Below, one piece after another: positions 7,572 to 15,700 of a stretch of 64,000 nucleotides of DNA. Both the position numbers and the translations under genes were made by a program. The notes below the pieces were generated by a model. The model saw only the letters and a list, made by a program, of their open reading frames with translations. It was not told where the DNA came from and did not search any database. Positions within the stretch are counted from its first letter, which is position 1. Every line of letters begins with the position of its first letter. Source of the stretch: Jiella marina (GTDB lineage: Bacteria > Pseudomonadota > Alphaproteobacteria > Rhizobiales > Rhizobiaceae); NCBI RefSeq assembly GCF_024359545.1, contig NZ_JAKQZG010000015.1, positions 62,001 to 126,000 of the forward strand. Reading direction: 5' to 3'.

Positions 7572-7887
7572 GCTTTTGGGCTTTTCGCCTTAAAAAACCT
7601 CGCAAATTCGCCGCAGCCATTGCACCGGACTGCTTGACAGAACATATGTGATCGGTCGAGACGACAAACAATCCGATTCCTGAGCTTGAAAGATTGCGGA
7701 ACTGCGCCTTTTACGAGGCGCCGTCTGGCGAAATCCGCACCGCGCGAACAGCAAGCGCGTGCCATGGTTAAGCCGGCGTTAACGGCAGATGTCTTAGCAT
7801 AGCGGCCGTGTGCGTCGCAGCATGGCGCCAACCCTCGATGTTTCCAGAGGGTCCGCCCGCCGGCATGCGAACTGGAGAATGAGACGA
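7572..7887 (+). other. dnaG-rpoD intergenic region
   Basis: This 316-nt gap has no credible gene. It holds a perfect TTGACA at 7634-7639, though the bases 16-18 nt downstream are a poor -10 match, and a consensus CtrA box at 7768-7783. It therefore probably contains the rpoD promoter or promoters. I see no good intrinsic terminator for dnaG. Confidence 0.6.
7768..7783 (+). promoter_or_regulatory. Candidate CtrA-binding box upstream of rpoD
   Basis: The sequence reads TTAA, seven bases, TTAAC, which is the full consensus for the alphaproteobacterial cell-cycle regulator CtrA. It lies about 105 nt upstream of the rpoD start in the only intergenic space before that gene. CtrA control of rpoD has, as I recall, been reported in Brucella, so the placement is plausible. 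Binding here is inferred from the motif only. Confidence 0.55.
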
Positions 7888-9906
<2,019 letters not shown>

Positions 9907-9919
9907 CGGGTCAGAGGCG

Positions 9920-10195
9920 ATGCCGACAGTCGCGGTCTTCTACGGCATCGTCATTCGCATGTACTTCTTCGACCACAACCCGCCGCACTTCCATGCCCAG
10001 TATGGACGTGCGCGGGCTTTGGTGCGCATATCCGACGGGGAAATCATCGCGGGCGCTCTGCCCAAGACCGCGACCCGCATGATCCGCGAATGGGCTCTCG
10101 ACCGGCGCGAACAGCTTGAGCTAAACTGGCGAAACGCAAGTGTCGGGATAGCGCTGGAGCGCATTCCCGGTCCCGATGGAGATGGCCATGAGTGA
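9920..10195 (+). CDS. DUF4160 domain protein
   Basis: A 91-residue protein whole-length similar to DUF4160: the hallmark [13 protein letters not shown] near residues 17-31 and a C-terminal helix with [16 protein letters not shown]4160 genes are typically next to a DUF2442 gene, as here, where the two reading frames overlap by 8 nt. Such pairs look like toxin-antitoxin or small regulatory modules, but no activity has been established to my knowledge. It follows rpoD by 13 nt with no terminator between, so read-through from rpoD is likely. Confidence 0.85.
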
Positions 10196-10472
10196 CACGG
10201 CATTTCCGATGGTGGATGTCCTCGCGGTGCGGGCCTTGCCGGGCCACGTCCTGGAACTTCGCTTTTCGACAGGCGAGGAGGGGCGTTTTTCCCTGGCCGA
10301 TCTCGTCGCTTCCGACGCGCCGATGGTTCGACCGCTGAAGGACGAGACAGAGTTCGCGCGTGTCTTCCTCGAGCTTGGCAATCCGGTCTGGCCGCATGGT
10401 TTCGACCTCGATGCCATCGCCCTCTACATGGACATGCGAGATCGTGGCCTGTTGCGAAGGCCCGCGGCATGA
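10188..10472 (+). CDS. DUF2442 domain protein
   Basis: A 94-residue protein of the DUF2442 family (VRALPGHVLELRFSTGEEGRF near the N terminus, WPHGFDLDAIALYMDM near the C terminus). Three in-frame ATGs occur at 10176, 10182 and 10188. A GGAG at 10178-10181 sits 6 nt before 10188, so that start is preferred, giving an 8-nt overlap with the DUF4160 stop and translational coupling. The next gene starts inside its stop codon (ATGA). The role is unknown; pairing with DUF4160 suggests the two act together. Confidence 0.85.
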   Translation: MSDTAFPMVDVLAVRALPGHVLELRFSTGEEGRFSLADLVASDAPMVRPLKDETEFARVFLELGNPVWPHGFDLDAIALYMDMRDRGLLRRPAA

Positions 10473-11071
10473 GCGCGCTTCCCGATCATCTTGCCGAGTC
10501 GCCTCAACCCCCCACCACCCAGGCCGCGGAAGGCATGCTGCGTCGCCCGTTCACCGTCGCCGAGATCGAGGCGATGGTCGCCGCCGGCATCATGGACGAG
10601 CATGACCGCGTCGAACTGATCGGCGGAGAGCTCGTGCCGATGTCCGCCAAGGGGATCAGCCACGAGCGGCTCAAGACCTTCCTCAACATGGACCTGGCGA
10701 GACAGCTCCCCGCGCCATTGGCATTCACGCCCGAAACCACCTTTCGCCTCTCTGACGACACGTTTCTCGAGCCCGATTTCGTCGTCTATGAGAAATCTGT
10801 CGGTCTCGAAGGCTTGAACGGTGCGACCTGCCTCTTGGCGATCGAGATCGGCGCCTCCAGTCTTGCCTATGATCGCGGCCGCACGGCCATGATCTATGCC
10901 GGTTTCGGTATCCGTGAGCTCTGGGTGATCGACGCAGCAACGCTCGAAACCCGCGTCTTCCGCGAGCCGACACCGACCGGCTACCGCCGCATCGCGGATC
11001 TTCTGCCAGACACCACTCTCGCCGCACTTTTCGTGCCGGGCCTCGCCATTCGCCTCTCCGGCCATAGCTGA
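10469..11071 (+). CDS. Uma2-family (DUF820) putative nuclease
   Basis: A 200-residue member of the Uma2/DUF820 family, which has a PD-(D/E)xK nuclease-like fold. Visible family features are the RVELIGGELVPMS strand-turn, the acidic EPDFVVYE segment and the LLAIEIGASSLAYDRG motif, containing the E and the downstream basic residue in IYAGFGIRELWVID. The usual core Asp (PD) and Glu (IE) positions are present, so it may be catalytically competent. The start overlaps the DUF2442 stop by 4 nt (ATGA), making this the third gene of one compact unit. Family function is unknown; the family is rare in most Rhizobiales and expanded in cyanobacteria. Confidence 0.85.
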   Translation: MSALPDHLAESPQPPTTQAAEGMLRRPFTVAEIEAMVAAGIMDEHDRVELIGGELVPMSAKGISHERLKTFLNMDLARQLPAPLAFTPETTFRLSDDTFLEPDFVVYEKSVGLEGLNGATCLLAIEIGASSLAYDRGRTAMIYAGFGIRELWVIDAATLETRVFREPTPTGYRRIADLLPDTTLAALFVPGLAIRLSGHS

Positions 11072-11096
11072 CCGGTCGACGGAGAAAACGAGGCGT

Positions 11097-11405
11097 ATGA
11101 TGTCCATCCTGAAGAAGCTGTTCGGAATTGGCGGCCCGAGTGCCGGGGCAACCGGCGAGTCCGGCGAGGCGCCTCCGACCGACAGCCGCGACTACAAGGG
11201 CTTCACCATCCACGCCACGCCGATCCCCGAAGGCGGCCAGTTCCGCCTCTCGGCCCTGATCCAGAAGGAAATCGGCGGCGAGACCAAATCCCACCGCCTG
11301 GTCCGCGCCGATCTGTTTTCCTCAAAGGACGAGGCGGCGACCTTCGCCTTCCGCAAGGCCGAGCAGGTGATCGATGAACAGGGCGATCAGGTCTTCGAGG
11401 GGTAG
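11097..11405 (+). CDS. HlyU-family protein
   Basis: A 102-residue protein. Residues about 30-100 match the HlyU family (YKGFTIHATPIPEGGQFRLS, HRLVRADLFSSKDEAA). In Vibrio the name-giving HlyU family refers to transcriptional activators, but this Pfam family in alphaproteobacteria is small and functionally uncharacterised. Two adjacent ATGs (11097 and 11100) are possible starts; the GAGG at 11090-11093 fits the second slightly better. The gene follows the Uma2 gene by 25 nt and could be the end of the same transcript. Confidence 0.8.
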   Translation: MMSILKKLFGIGGPSAGATGESGEAPPTDSRDYKGFTIHATPIPEGGQFRLSALIQKEIGGETKSHRLVRADLFSSKDEAATFAFRKAEQVIDEQGDQVFEG

Positions 11406-11570
11406 CGGGGAAATTGGTGCCATGGGGCGGATTGCCCTCGGCTGATTTAGCAGTCCGCCTGATGCGCCATCGAACCGCGAACTCCGGCCATCTTAGATAT
11501 CCGGCTGCGACAGCCCTTGCCACATAACTACCCGGCATTGCATTCTGACTGACAGAGGCAAGGGGATGGC

Positions 11571-13553
11571 GTGGCTGCGACCGAACGCGAAGAAATTACA
11601 GACCAAGAAAGCTTTAAACGCTGGCTCGAAGGTCAGCCGAATGATGTCGCGCAGGTCATGGCGGTTCGTGCCGCTTTGCGGGTTTTTCCGCTTGTGCTGG
11701 GTGAACATGTCTACCGTCGGACGCGGAAGCATTATGTCGATGACCTGATTCGATTGACCTTAACTAGTGCACGATGTCTGATCATCTCGTGGGCTGCGCG
11801 CAAATATCCGATCCACGAAATGGCCGAAGCCGCTGCTTCTGCCGCCGACACCGCCGCTTACGCCGCCAGAGCCGCCATTGCCCACACCGCCTTCGCCGCC
11901 CACGCCGCCGACGCCGCCGCCGCCGCCGCCGACGCCGCCGCTGCAGCTGCTAGAGCCGCTTTCGCCGCCGACGCCGCCAGAGCTGCTGCCGCCAGAGCCG
12001 CCTCAGCTGCCGCCGCCGCTGCGTACGCCGCTGCCTATGCGGCCGCCGCCGCCGCCGATGTCGCCGCTGGCACCGCCGCTTGGAAGGCTGTCGAAATCGA
12101 GGCGCGCTGGATTGATAAAGGCGGGAATGCGGGAGACCTGCTCAATACGCCACTCTGGCCTGCAGATGAGCACAGCACGCTGTGCACTGGCGCCGACACG
12201 ATAGCGCTCGATGGCGGCCGCATAGCACCCGAATGGGTATTATCTGCGCTAGAATCCTATTCGAACGACCCAAACATTCGTGCCAGTTCTTGGGTGCTTT
12301 GGGCGGAATGGTATTCTGCGCTGCTTCCAATGCATCCGTTTAAAACGCCGTTCAGCGCCTTTGGCGAGGCGGCGGACCTCGAGATCGTGCGCCAATCGAA
12401 TAACTTCTGGGATCGTCATCCCGACGACGTGATGGCGGCCATCGCCTCGATCGTCGAAAGGCGTCGTGGGACGGTGAAGGTCGAGGATGGTGGTGAGGAT
12501 GAATCTCTTCCAGACGACACGACATTGTCCCAGTTTATCTTCAGTCTTCTGCAGTCCGAGCTTCGTGAATATTCGCTCGATGAAATCGTGGCTGCGTGTA
12601 GAGAGGCCGGCTTTACAGGACCGCGGTCTTCAATTCGGGGGCGCGTGAACACGCTGACGAGTGAAGGGCGTATTCGACGAGTGTCCCGAGCCATCTACGC
12701 TTCGATCGGCTACGAGCCGCCTGGACTAACGTCCGACGTCGAGATCCCACCCCAAGAGCGCGCGCCCGTCGAGACTGTCGTTTCAGACGGCAGAGTCCTG
12801 CGTCTGGTCCATCCGCCTTCTACCGAGAATGCTAGCGTTGCGACAATTCATGGGATCCTTCGCACGGAAGCCGATTGGCTTCGGGGACGGATAAGCGGAC
12901 AAATGCCTGATGCTACAACGTCCTTTGATCAGTTGATCAACGAGCTCGGCATCGATTTGCAGACTATGAACGTGGTCGGTGCCGGATATTGGACGAATGT
13001 CCTCGCTCAGATGGCAGCGCGGGTGGATGAAACACTGCTTGAAGATGCGGCCGGTCGGTTCGCAGGCTTTGTGGTCAATCTGGATCTGTTTCTGAAGCAG
13101 TTTCCAGAGTGGGAGGAGTACATCCGCGGTGCACAAAATGCCGAACTGCGGGCGCTCTCCCAAACTGATACCGAGGCGGAAACGATGGATCTCGTCGAAG
13201 CGCTTGTGGAGGCCAATGATGTAATCGACTCGTCGGTTTCGGACCCGATCAGCTTTCTCAACAAGGCGCTCTTGGATGCGCCGGTGTATAATCCTGAAAC
13301 GGCGTATGGCTTTTACCAAAGCCTTTCGAACGTATTGCGCTCAATTGCGCAGATCGCGGTCAGGCACGGACCCGAGCAACTGGCTCGTCTCGCTCGGGAA
13401 ACGGGAACGGAGGCACGTAAGAAGGCTGTCTCTTGGACGGTCGGCGGGATACTTCTCGGCTGCGGCTTAAGTCTGGGGAGACTCGCCGAGCAGGTTCCTT
13501 CGATGTTCGGTTTCCTTGGTCCTGTGTTGAAGCTGTTCGGTGTTGGTGGCTAG
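11571..13553 (+). CDS. Alanine-rich protein with winged-helix-like segment, unknown function
   Basis: A 660-residue protein I do not recognise. The GTG start at 11571 follows an AGGGGA Shine-Dalgarno 5 nt upstream. Residues 1-80 are ordinary globular sequence; 85-170 are an almost pure Ala run with periodic Asp, Arg, Tyr and Ser, expected to be one long helix. Residues 180-300 are globular and Trp-rich. Residues 317-378 look like a winged helix (SLDEIVAACREAGF, then SSIRGRVNTLTSEGRIRRV). Residues 400-610 are helical, and 622-660 are hydrophobic and Gly-rich, possibly membrane-associating. Codon use is less GC-rich after 12,200 than in neighbours, pointing to transfer. The stop codon TAG is formed by the left junction of an IS630 element; without the element the same codon would be TAA, so the protein is intact. 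Confidence 0.75.
   Translation: MAATEREEITDQESFKRWLEGQPNDVAQVMAVRAALRVFPLVLGEHVYRRTRKHYVDDLIRLTLTSARCLIISWAARKYPIHEMAEAAASAADTAAYAARAAIAHTAFAAHAADAAAAAADAAAAAARAAFAADAARAAAARAASAAAAAAYAAAYAAAAAADVAAGTAAWKAVEIEARWIDKGGNAGDLLNTPLWPADEHSTLCTGADTIALDGGRIAPEWVLSALESYSNDPNIRASSWVLWAEWYSALLPMHPFKTPFSAFGEAADLEIVRQSNNFWDRHPDDVMAAIASIVERRRGTVKVEDGGEDESLPDDTTLSQFIFSLLQSELREYSLDEIVAACREAGFTGPRSSIRGRVNTLTSEGRIRRVSRAIYASIGYEPPGLTSDVEIPPQERAPVETVVSDGRVLRLVHPPSTENASVATIHGILRTEADWLRGRISGQMPDATTSFDQLINELGIDLQTMNVVGAGYWTNVLAQMAARVDETLLEDAAGRFAGFVVNLDLFLKQFPEWEEYIRGAQNAELRALSQTDTEAETMDLVEALVEANDVIDSSVSDPISFLNKALLDAPVYNPETAYGFYQSLSNVLRSIAQIAVRHGPEQLARLARETGTEARKKAVSWTVGGILLGCGLSLGRLAEQVPSMFGFLGPVLKLFGVGG
11823..12080 (+). 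repeat. GCC-codon low-complexity repeat encoding Ala-rich helix
   Basis: The run is built from GCC/GCT/GCA alanine codons with interspersed GAC, AGA and TAC codons, forming imperfect 6-, 9- and 15-nt repeats. It encodes residues 85-170 of the 660-residue protein. Such a tract can change length by strand slippage in steps of three without breaking the frame. Confidence 0.75.
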
Positions 13554-13565
13554 AGCATCGGACAC

Positions 13566-14168
13566 TTAACCGTACGCATATCCTGCTTCTGTGAGGTAGT
13601 TCCAACATTCGTCTTTGTCATAGAGACCGCAGATGTCGCCGATGATCCGCCATAAGGCGTCGAAGGTCCGAGCTTCTGCCTTGCGCAAGTGGGCTTTGAG
13701 CTTGGCGAAGGCCATCTCGATCGGGTTGATGTCGGGGCTGTAGGGTGGGAGAAAGAGGAACCAGGCGCCTCTTTCCTTCAGGATCGCTGCCGCCTTTGCG
13801 CTTTTGTGAACCGCCAGATTGTCGAGGACGACCACGTCGCCCTTGCTGAGCGTGGGGGTGAGCTGGGTCTCGACATAGGTATCGAAGACGGATCGGTTCA
13901 TGGCTTGATCGAGCACCCAGGGCGCCGTCAGACGGTCGCAACGCAGGCCGGCGATGAAGGTCTGCGTGCCCCAGTGGCCGAAGGGTGCCTTGGCCCGCAG
14001 CCTCTGGCCCTTTCGGCTTCGACCACGCAATTGGGTCATCTTCGTATTGACCGAAGTTTCATCGATAAAGACCAACCGATGGGGCTGCAGCCGCATCCGT
14101 GGCTGGCGCTTGTCGACCCAGACGCGTCGCTCGTCACGAATGTCTGCGCGTGCGCACTCCGCTGCCAT
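13566..14168 (-). CDS. IS630-family transposase, orfB (catalytic part)
   Basis: A 200-residue ORF with the DDE catalytic core of IS630 transposases: D36 in RLVFIDETS, the second Asp in [11 protein letters not shown], and the Glu in [18 protein letters not shown]. It joins mobile DNA at TA targets. It overlaps orfA, and the natural protein is probably an OrfAB fusion made at a seven-A tract (14175-14181 on the minus strand). The fused reading [10 protein letters not shown] needs one A to be skipped. No internal stop or other damage is visible, so the element may be active. Confidence 0.9.
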
Positions 14169-14523
14169 CAGCGATTTTTTTATATGTGAAGCCGCGGCGG
14201 CACAGAAAGCGCGACAACACGGCCGGGTCGGCCGTCATCCCATGAATCTCCAGAAGTCTGGCTGCCAGTTCCGGCATCGTGATGTCCGGTTGGCGTTCGA
14301 CTTCGCCAATCAGAAAGGTCTCGAAAGGCTCCAGCTTGCCGCTGCCCCGTGGCCGACCCTGCCGCGGTGGGACAGCCGAGCCCTCGCGATCATGACGCTG
14401 CATCAGCTTGATCGCGAAGCTCTCGCTCACACCGAAATGCCGCGCCGTCGAGCGACGGGAATGTCCCTCCGCAATGCGCCCGACCACACGTTCACGAAGA
14501 TCCATCGAATAGCTGCGGCCCAT
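14134..14523 (-). CDS. IS630-family transposase, orfA (DNA-binding part)
   Basis: A 129-residue ORF with the N-terminal helix-turn-helix of IS630 transposases ([20 protein letters not shown], then [18 protein letters not shown]) and a second HTH-like region ([15 protein letters not shown]). It reads through the A7 tract into about 11 off-family residues before stopping. Without frameshifting it would yield a short DNA-binding protein that could compete with the fusion, as in other two-ORF insertion sequences. Confidence 0.88.
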
Positions 14524-14796
14524 GATCCACCTCCTGTCTCAGTGAATCACCCTTCAGAAAACTTGCAAACCTTCGATTCTCATTTCATGTCCGTCGCTCT
14601 AAAAGGGGCGCATCGACGGGTTCGCGCCATCTGCGGCCAGCCTTCTCAGGCGGTAGAATGAACCCTCATCCGCTTTACGGGCACCTTCCCCCCCTGTGCG
14701 GGAGAAGTCGTGGGCGCCTTGGCTCGGGCGGCTTGACTTCGACCAAAGCCGGCATCCTCTCAACGCCTCTTGCCACCACCCTATCTCCGGTCCACA

Positions 14797-14827: not shown

Positions 14828-15700
14828 ATGGCCGAGACACTCAAAGGCAAGACGATCTTCATGTCCGGCGGGTCGCGCGGGATTGGGCTGGCGATCGCGC
14901 TGCGGGCCGCGCGGGACGGGGCGAATGTGGTGGTGGCGGCGAAGACCGCCGAGCCGCATCCCAAGCTGCCGGGGACGATCCACACCGCCGTCGAGGAGAT
15001 CGAGAAGGCTGGCGGGCAGGGGCTTGGCGTTCTGTGCGACATCCGCGAGGAGACACAGGTTCAGGCTGCTGTGGATCAGGCGGTCGAGCGGTTCGGCGGG
15101 ATCGACATCGTCGTCAACAACGCCTCGGCGATCCAGCTGACCGATACGGTCTCGACCCACATGAAGCGCTACGACCTGATGAACGGGGTCAATGCGCGCG
15201 GCACGTTCCTGGTTTCCAAGCTCTCTATCCCGCATCTGAAGAAGGCGGACAACCCGCATATCCTGACGCTGTCGCCGCCGCTCGACATGAAGGCGAAATG
15301 GTTCGCCGGCCACATCGCCTATTCCATGGCGAAGTTCGGCATGTCGATGGTCACGCTTGGCCTGGCCGAGGAGTTGAGGAAGGACGGCATCGCCGCGAAT
15401 TCGCTCTGGCCGATTTCGGTGATCGACACGGCGGCGGTGCGCAACGTCCTGGGCGGCGCGTCCATGGCCGCGATGAGCCGCTCGCCGGAGATCATGGCCG
15501 ATGCGGCCCATGCCATTCTGACCCGGTCGGCGCGCGAATGCTCCGGCAATTTCTTCATCGACGAACTCCTCCTCATGGAAGAGGGCGTGACGGACTTTTC
15601 GCAATACGGGCCGGAGGAGGGCGTGCCGATGGCCGATTTCTTCGTGCCGGACGAAGCCTTCGAGAAGGCGATCACCAAGGTGAAGCGGCAATTCGGTTGA
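14828..15700 (+). CDS. SDR-family oxidoreductase (HSDL2-like)
   Basis: A 290-residue short-chain dehydrogenase. The nucleotide-binding motif SGGSRGIG is at 13-20, NNAS at 97-100, and the catalytic Ser149, Tyr165 and Lys169 (YSMAK) are all present. The length and the C-terminal extension match the HSDL2-like subgroup, which is linked to lipid or short-chain acyl metabolism. The gene has a strong AGGGAGG ribosome site and a perfect 16-bp dyad just upstream. The NTF2-like and GNAT genes follow on the same strand with a 76-nt gap, so a shared transcript is possible. The true substrate cannot be read from the sequence. Confidence 0.88.
   Translation: MAETLKGKTIFMSGGSRGIGLAIALRAARDGANVVVAAKTAEPHPKLPGTIHTAVEEIEKAGGQGLGVLCDIREETQVQAAVDQAVERFGGIDIVVNNASAIQLTDTVSTHMKRYDLMNGVNARGTFLVSKLSIPHLKKADNPHILTLSPPLDMKAKWFAGHIAYSMAKFGMSMVTLGLAEELRKDGIAANSLWPISVIDTAAVRNVLGGASMAAMSRSPEIMADAAHAILTRSARECSGNFFIDELLLMEEGVTDFSQYGPEEGVPMADFFVPDEAFEKAITKVKRQFG

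Follow-up and report, generated by a model that had tools for sequence, protein, structure and literature searches.

A modular family of alphaproteobacterial proteins with a shared helical module and interchangeable back ends: candidate single-gene conflict proteins often encoded behind rpoD

The predicted 660-residue protein encoded at positions 11571–13553 of the forward strand of the analysed DNA (hereafter the window, a stretch of 64,000 nucleotides from Jiella marina) is shown by comparison with its homologs to be a member of an unnamed modular family, in which a shared front is followed by varied back ends. Such swapping of back ends is typical of bacterial self-defence proteins and, by analogy with them, the family probably plays a role in immunity. 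As regards the window protein itself, the chances are roughly even that it is a single-gene conflict protein of the abortive-infection type, whose module would control a back end composed of a winged helix and a membrane-acting part; the defence role is one that we infer. The coordinates are collected in Table 1.

Table 1. Predicted domains of the window protein and features of its genomic site
Feature	Position	Strand	Description and evidence
rpoD	7810..9906	+	family gene within 2 kb downstream in 12 of 25 positive genomes
HlyU-family gene	11097..11405	+	Pfam HlyU, E 1.5e-30; syntenic marker of the rpoD block
Front half of module	11589..11837	+	residues 7-89; WLEGqP..AQ..A.R.ALR.P ... R...ISWAARKYP; profile A3 (built from five rows, the window protein among them), E 1.3e-39
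Ala-rich helical insert	11823..12086	+	residues 85-172; GCC-rich repeats in the DNA
Rear half of module	12075..12464	+	residues 169-298; W.AVE..A.W ... LLNTPLW ... W.LWAEWYS.LL ... FWDR.P..V.A.IA; profiles A2 (E 1.0e-45) and A6 (E 2.5e-32), the window protein being a row of both
Winged-helix-like domain	12519..12704	+	residues 317-378; 21-36% identity to three relatives
C-terminal helical domain	12747..13550	+	residues 393-660; Ahrensia homology; helices in low-confidence model
Moderately hydrophobic C-terminal segments	13428..13550	+	residues 620-660; hydropathy
IS element	13553..14599	-	DDE_3 transposase (Pfam); ends inferred; at stop-codon TA; protein intact
Short-chain dehydrogenase (SDR)	14828..15700	+	labelled by eye; marks the right side of the site

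Results

The conserved module

Independent support for the front half of the module comes from a KAP-fused protein of Jiella pacifica (L053; 60% identity over 81 aa), and the rear half was first detected by a plain sequence search, in genomes G105 and G173. Two tryptophans (W196 and W280 in the window numbering) are invariant across 30 aligned members, and R33, R37, P40, W247 and Y248 are among the residues kept in at least 90% of them. The existence of a module-only protein (L108, 275 aa) supports the domain border. The Ala-rich stretch noticed in a preceding sequence-only reading was confirmed, with 61 Ala among the 88 residues at positions 85–172, and the remaining residues recur with a period of 3.50 (shuffling the same residues gives p = 0.03). 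The suggestion of one long rod-like helix found no support: the same position contains less than 38% Ala in 9 of 28 members, and the module model made from the relative L058 splits the region into several low-confidence helices. Across the members the Ala content of the insert ranges from 15 to 81% (at least 38% in 19/28), its length varies too between relatives at the same position, and TRF identified units of 3, 9, 18, 21 and 39 bases in the DNA of the window's Ala-rich part. As far as can be judged from these sequences, the Ala-rich part represents a labile insert, built from repeats, that separates the two module halves. Slippage of the Ala repeat was rejected as an on/off switch, since every TRF unit (3 to 60 bases) has a length divisible by three.

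The insert of L089 (6214–6519) is built from a 60-base unit (5.1 copies, 89% matching) and exhibits a four-residue period, unusual for a helix. The protein encoded at L078:2244–4772 possesses two tandem modules, the halves of the first being closer together. Members comprising the front half only are encoded at L073:5854–6372 and L083:5983–6438, both away from contig ends; the rear half is absent from every frame of the next 2.4 kb, and these forms may be remnants or short forms. A motif similar to WEQGPAxVNAEI is one that we take to be common in Rhizobiales.

Relatives and phyletic spread

The architecture had been described as one that could not be matched, which holds with respect to named families, as neither Pfam nor NCBIfam yielded a match above cut-off for the window protein, but was overturned at the sequence level, where a modular family of relatives exists. 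The homology search with the non-Ala parts, proposed together with that description, identified relatives in 5 of the 199 genomes sampled for it from the window's family, its own genome included. Within the same family, the profile of the front 80 residues matched 25 of 394 genomes, belonging to 15 of 109 genera. In the class sample this profile matched 7 of 289 genomes, two of which were dropped (G344, with L096, a 1514-aa protein that looks unrelated, and G263, with L097, a front piece of 28 residues and possibly a remnant), and the rear profile matched 5 of 289. All 8 matches among 299 genomes of the phylum sample fall within the window's class or nearer. A scan of genome contigs revealed 13 loci, mostly assigned to Rhizobiaceae, to the Rhizobiaceae group or to genera including Jiella, Aquibium, Ahrensia and Rhizobium, the others being one assigned only to Alphaproteobacteria, one of Sphingomonadales and one Pseudorhodobacter. 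Searches of viral, phage and plasmid collections with the queries used here did not detect the module.

Interchangeable back ends

Pfam analysis of 30 members identified TIR, KAP and AAA domains, plus two single weak coil-like matches. TIR_2 is present in three members (best E 6.7e-26) and KAP_NTPase in four (best E 1.3e-30); NCBIfam QatA is likewise matched by four of the 30 (best E 9.9e-23), and the PADLOC and NCBIfam matches of the members are the same in kind (QatA, PifA, SAVED-TIR and pAgo-TIR). Four members scanned singly gave no Pfam match inside the module. Inspected by eye, the TIR glutamate and the KAP Walker motifs of the relatives appear intact. A winged-helix-like part occupies, in 4 members, the slot taken by TIR or KAP in others, and the remaining back ends comprise helices only, most with a hydrophobic end (KAP in L107 and the winged helix in L063 and L080 were labelled by eye).

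On a tree of 31 modules the five KAP rows correspond to 5 changes, the three TIR rows to 3 and the three winged-helix rows to 3, counts that are independent of the TM labelling. All five back-end classes together take 14 changes, against a mean of 13.4 for shuffled labels (as low in 200 of 200), the 'TMonly' and 'noTM' labels being rough (L076 and L081 count as TM though they have no segment on the second hydropathy scale, and L091, which has such a segment, counts as noTM). Because the class changes match those of shuffled labels, the back end does not track the module. The tree omits L063 (whose Ala region contains two Ns and a change of frame), L088, L092 and L108–L111, the contig-end fragments L067, L069, L093, L094 and L095, and the front-only L060 (a short piece), L073 and L083.

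On this tree the sister of the window module is a KAP-fused module (support 98/95), and the back of the KAP-fused Jiella pacifica protein (a 1330-codon frame) is unrelated to that of the window protein. The latter is 48% identical, gap-free over 261 aa, to the back of a protein from an Ahrensia MAG, the middles of the two showing no similarity. In the rear module half, two proteins of one MAG share 81% identity over 129 aa; they have no significant match behind it. The protein that has the window's C-terminus and a middle domain (residues about 290–440) without similarity to that of the window protein is encoded at L057:4965–7130, and in L072, from an Ahrensia MAG, a TIR member and a member with the window's C-terminus (407–2476 and 11309–13474) lie 9 kb apart downstream of rpoD. 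The protein encoded at L172:5242–6735, on a plasmid of Rhizobium indigoferae, resembles the TIR members in its tail (32%, E 3e-4), which follows a different N-terminal part, and its gene adjoins DUF4007 and cysteine desulfurase genes, a neighbourhood that presumably resembles a DNA phosphorothioation-type locus.

C-terminal hydrophobic segments were found in 21 of the 28 members without TIR or KAP, in none of three with TIR and in none of five with KAP, on hydropathy scales and with a segment cut-off of our own; the KAP members have two hydrophobic segments in the NTPase region instead. This complementarity of tails and TIR or KAP domains suggests membrane action as one of the alternative outputs. 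Profile comparison linked several C-terminal groups (A-G 97%, D-F 93–95%, C-D 80–90%), and the group of the window protein gave no significant match to other C-terminal groups.

The back end of the window protein

No TIR, KAP or P-loop NTPase was identified in the window protein with Pfam or NCBIfam. The winged-helix-like part proposed in the sequence-only reading at residues 317–378 received an AbiEi-type signal, which is weak (PADLOC, E 0.0033), and no winged-helix model of Pfam matched the segment, its best hit there being a UBA model (0.012). Among the four aligned winged-helix members, two match AbiEi_4 (best 0.00096; in L003, 16 bits, below the cut-off of 25 bits) and one matches the Hop2 winged helix (0.0043). 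Thus, the winged-helix part weakly resembles the AbiEi antitoxin (AbiEi_4), by Pfam in the relatives and by PADLOC in the window protein, but all matches are sub-threshold and the window protein itself has no AbiEi_4 match in Pfam. An AbiEii nucleotidyltransferase is absent beside the gene, the adjacent genes coding for HlyU and a DDE_3 transposase (Pfam). The hydrophobic end is present as claimed, but only moderate: the Kyte-Doolittle value is 1.30 at residue 620 and the second scale gives two segments, which is borderline for a membrane segment, and many relatives have a more strongly hydrophobic C-terminus.

The structure prediction that had been called for succeeded in part. The AlphaFold model of the full window protein is poor (pLDDT 43.6, pTM 0.29), and the module model made from L058 (pLDDT 67.5, pTM 0.70) is almost entirely helical; the conserved blocks are modelled with fair to good confidence, the insert with poor confidence. 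Searches with this model found no clear match to solved structures (best Foldseek E 0.41; best structural Z 6.2, to a designed protein); GPCRs and similar matches resemble the usual noise of helical proteins. At the sequence level, the best E in the PDB was 0.13 for queries consisting of the non-Ala protein and the profiles of the winged helix and of the rear module.

The gene and the rpoD site

The reading frame is intact, with a GTG start, 660 codons and no internal stops, inside a stop-to-stop frame of only 666 codons. The N-terminus (VAATEREEITD) resembles that of a same-genus relative (VAASEREKITD), which suggests a start codon common to both predicted proteins. Codon use unlike that of the neighbours, another feature noticed earlier, was borne out by a GC3 of 0.614, compared with 0.741–0.884 in 11 nearby genes (IS included), as was the adjacent insertion sequence, the DDE_3 transposase gene lying next door.

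Where the family gene lies behind rpoD it is on the same strand, at distances of 105–1952 bases (1665 in the window); of the 12 such genomes, two (G197 and G523) are truncated at contig ends, and in G173 Ns are present and the frame is altered. An rpoD-downstream copy is also present in L058 and in G718 (another family of the order). The other 13 positive genomes have no rpoD in the flank examined, the flanks being shortened by contig ends in several. No members were found within up to 6 kb at 60 rpoD-anchored sites (59 genera plus one further genome of the window's genus) taken in handle order, three stretches being shorter than 2.3 kb owing to contig ends, and this absence fits 12 of 394. 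The gene is thus rare at the rpoD site, yet often there when a genome has it. On the tree the rpoD position is occupied in 11 of 31 rows, with 7 changes (a raw count, unshuffled); the gene at this site may be an old resident with many losses or may have arrived repeatedly.

In G041, from another genus, HlyU and SDR are separated by about 80–96 bases, an empty version of the site, and in the window the gene and the IS lie between them. In G122, of the window's own genus, the SDR is missing from the stretch behind rpoD; an SDR relative also occurs near members in L064 and L066. The rpoD–HlyU interval (9906–11405 in the window) is a variable block, with Uma2 here, presumably together with DUF4160-like and DUF2442-like genes, and other genes elsewhere. 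Uma2 lies behind rpoD at 7 of the 60 sampled sites and beside members in L062, L063 and L069. A general defence island behind rpoD was rejected, as 18 rpoD–HlyU intervals inspected by eye contain Uma2, YjbQ-like and other ordinary genes.

The IS, which we take to be of the IS630 type, has probable inverted repeats at 13551–13564 and 14588–14601 (one of 20 pairs listed), the left one starting inside the stop codon; it is flanked by TA on both sides, and a stop can be read at the right flank too. The overlap between its two ORFs lies close to seven consecutive T, where a frameshift could occur; such frameshifting is typical of some IS630 elements. Because it is located at the gene's stop codon, the element probably did not bring the gene and was rejected as its carrier. 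Transfer of the gene, raised in the sequence-only reading, agrees with the low GC3, with the lack of a match in six of seven other sampled genomes of the genus and with the short HlyU–SDR distance in another genus, but not with the IS as vehicle.

Neighbouring genes

Across 44 stretches the recurrent neighbours are rpoD (13), dnaG (11, labelled by eye) and HlyU (6), the next occurring in 5, all at rpoD sites; neither a widely recurrent partner gene nor a small immunity-like neighbour was found in them, the genes in these stretches, in the 18 rpoD–HlyU intervals and around members away from rpoD having been called by a codon-score script, not a gene finder. For members away from rpoD, 96 neighbours were selected and 94 scanned. 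Among the matches listed (25 of 40 PADLOC models), mad3, mad8 and AriA are the commonest and look like generic ABC-type ATPase hits, and a type II methyltransferase, SduA, AbiLi, PDC-S03 and PDC-S06 were each matched once; for Pfam, the best 25 of 136 models were considered. The survey of homologs' neighbours for defence genes, proposed earlier, thus showed few of them among the 94 in the matches listed, and no evident enrichment by plain count (no control loci).

Discussion

Possible function

In the proposed mechanism, the conserved all-helical module would sense infection or stress and restrain an effector through helix packing or oligomerisation, and the released effector (a TIR NADase, a KAP NTPase or a helical, membrane-inserting tail) would disable the cell. 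For the window protein, this effector would consist of the winged helix, with a possible role in nucleic-acid binding or protein contact, and the helical domain with the hydrophobic end, so that the likeliest output of this single gene would be membrane association or damage. The earlier guess of a defence or signalling gene agrees with the presence of TIR or KAP on the same module in relatives, but the window protein has neither; the weak winged helix, the borderline hydrophobic end and the front-only relatives L073 and L083 also speak against defence, as do the lack of a significant profile match between its C-terminal domain and the other C-terminal groups, the scarcity of defence genes among the 94 scanned neighbours and the failure to detect the module in the viral, phage and plasmid collections. 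The wider proposal, that the family represents a new kind of immune receptor, with an Ala-rich, repeat-expandable sensor or oligomerisation module and freely swapped effectors, often encoded behind rpoD, is a tentative one, to which we give somewhat less than even odds.

The winged helix could equally mean a transcription factor. Perhaps the module detects a ligand and DNA binding by the winged helix tunes genes in the vicinity, rpoD or hlyU among them, the TIR and KAP proteins being signalling variants? The winged-helix-like part at 317–378, the recurrent place directly behind rpoD and the weak matches to AbiEi regulators are consistent with such a regulator, but the winged helix is present in 4 members only, members without it hold the same place behind rpoD, many members have a hydrophobic tail, and TIR and KAP domains are not DNA binders; we regard this reading as unlikely. 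A little less likely still is a membrane-stress or envelope protein with no defence role, the Ala-rich helix and the tail of which would lie on or in the membrane: the hydrophobic ends of 21 of the 28 members without TIR or KAP and the lack of an evident defence-island context would suit it, but it leaves the scattered TIR and KAP fusions and the patchy presence (25 of 394 genomes) unexplained. The constant front and variable back also recall a polymorphic-toxin-like or interbacterial system, in which the front would serve delivery and the back ends would be toxic; this we consider improbable, as secretion-related Pfam families are absent from the 30 members, the widely recurrent small neighbour expected of an immunity gene was not found in the 44 stretches, and TIR and KAP effectors usually act inside their own cell. 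Finally, a decaying or selfish gene without function, at the rpoD site by chance, would agree with the low GC3, the patchy presence, the front-only L073 and L083 and the short piece L060, but is very improbable given the intact frame in the window, the gap-free C-terminus 48% identical across genera and the TIR and KAP motifs of relatives, intact by eye.

Relationship to known systems

Imm5-like small helical proteins are, as we assume, similar to the module, and the DUF416 structure (2q9r) is also a small helical protein (Z 5.1, rmsd 5.5 over 133 residues, a Z too low to be informative for helical bundles); neither Imm5-like nor DUF416 families are matched by the window protein in Pfam. The QatA/KAP P-loop NTPases share with the family the KAP_NTPase and QatA matches of 4 of 30 members, but the window protein lacks KAP and no Qat partner is among the widely recurrent neighbours. 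Similarly, TIR_2 in 3 of 30 members recalls the TIR effectors of Thoeris, SAVED-TIR and pAgo-TIR, but the window protein has no TIR and no Thoeris or CBASS partner recurs in the 44 stretches. The closest parallel in principle is offered by the conflict systems with effector-associated domains (EADs) from the work of Kaur, Iyer and Aravind (PMC7159879, PMC8195603), which are described as combining shared regulatory domains with interchangeable effectors, TIR domains and membrane perforation being named as effector actions and KAP ATPases as able to displace STAND NTPases in prokaryotic conflict systems (PMC8195603). The likeness to the present family lies in interchangeable effectors on one shared domain; the differences are the larger module (about 290 aa), its Ala-rich repeat insert and the lack of a widely recurrent partner gene. 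No EAD, Death-like or peptidase part was matched by Pfam in 30 members (EAD profiles were covered incompletely), and 'alanine' occurs in neither paper and 'Rhizobi' once in one of them, on bacteroid aggregates. No earlier description of the module was found in the literature searched (limited terms, titles and abstract openings). The module is unnamed in the domain libraries searched, and the principle of one regulator with many effectors is already known.

If the proposed role is true, a so far undescribed regulatory module of alphaproteobacterial conflict proteins would get a name, and the TIR, KAP and membrane versions of this one module would provide a short list of single-gene candidates. 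It would then be interesting to determine whether low-complexity Ala repeats serve to tune immune activation, and why a family with swapped effectors recurs behind the gene for the housekeeping sigma factor.
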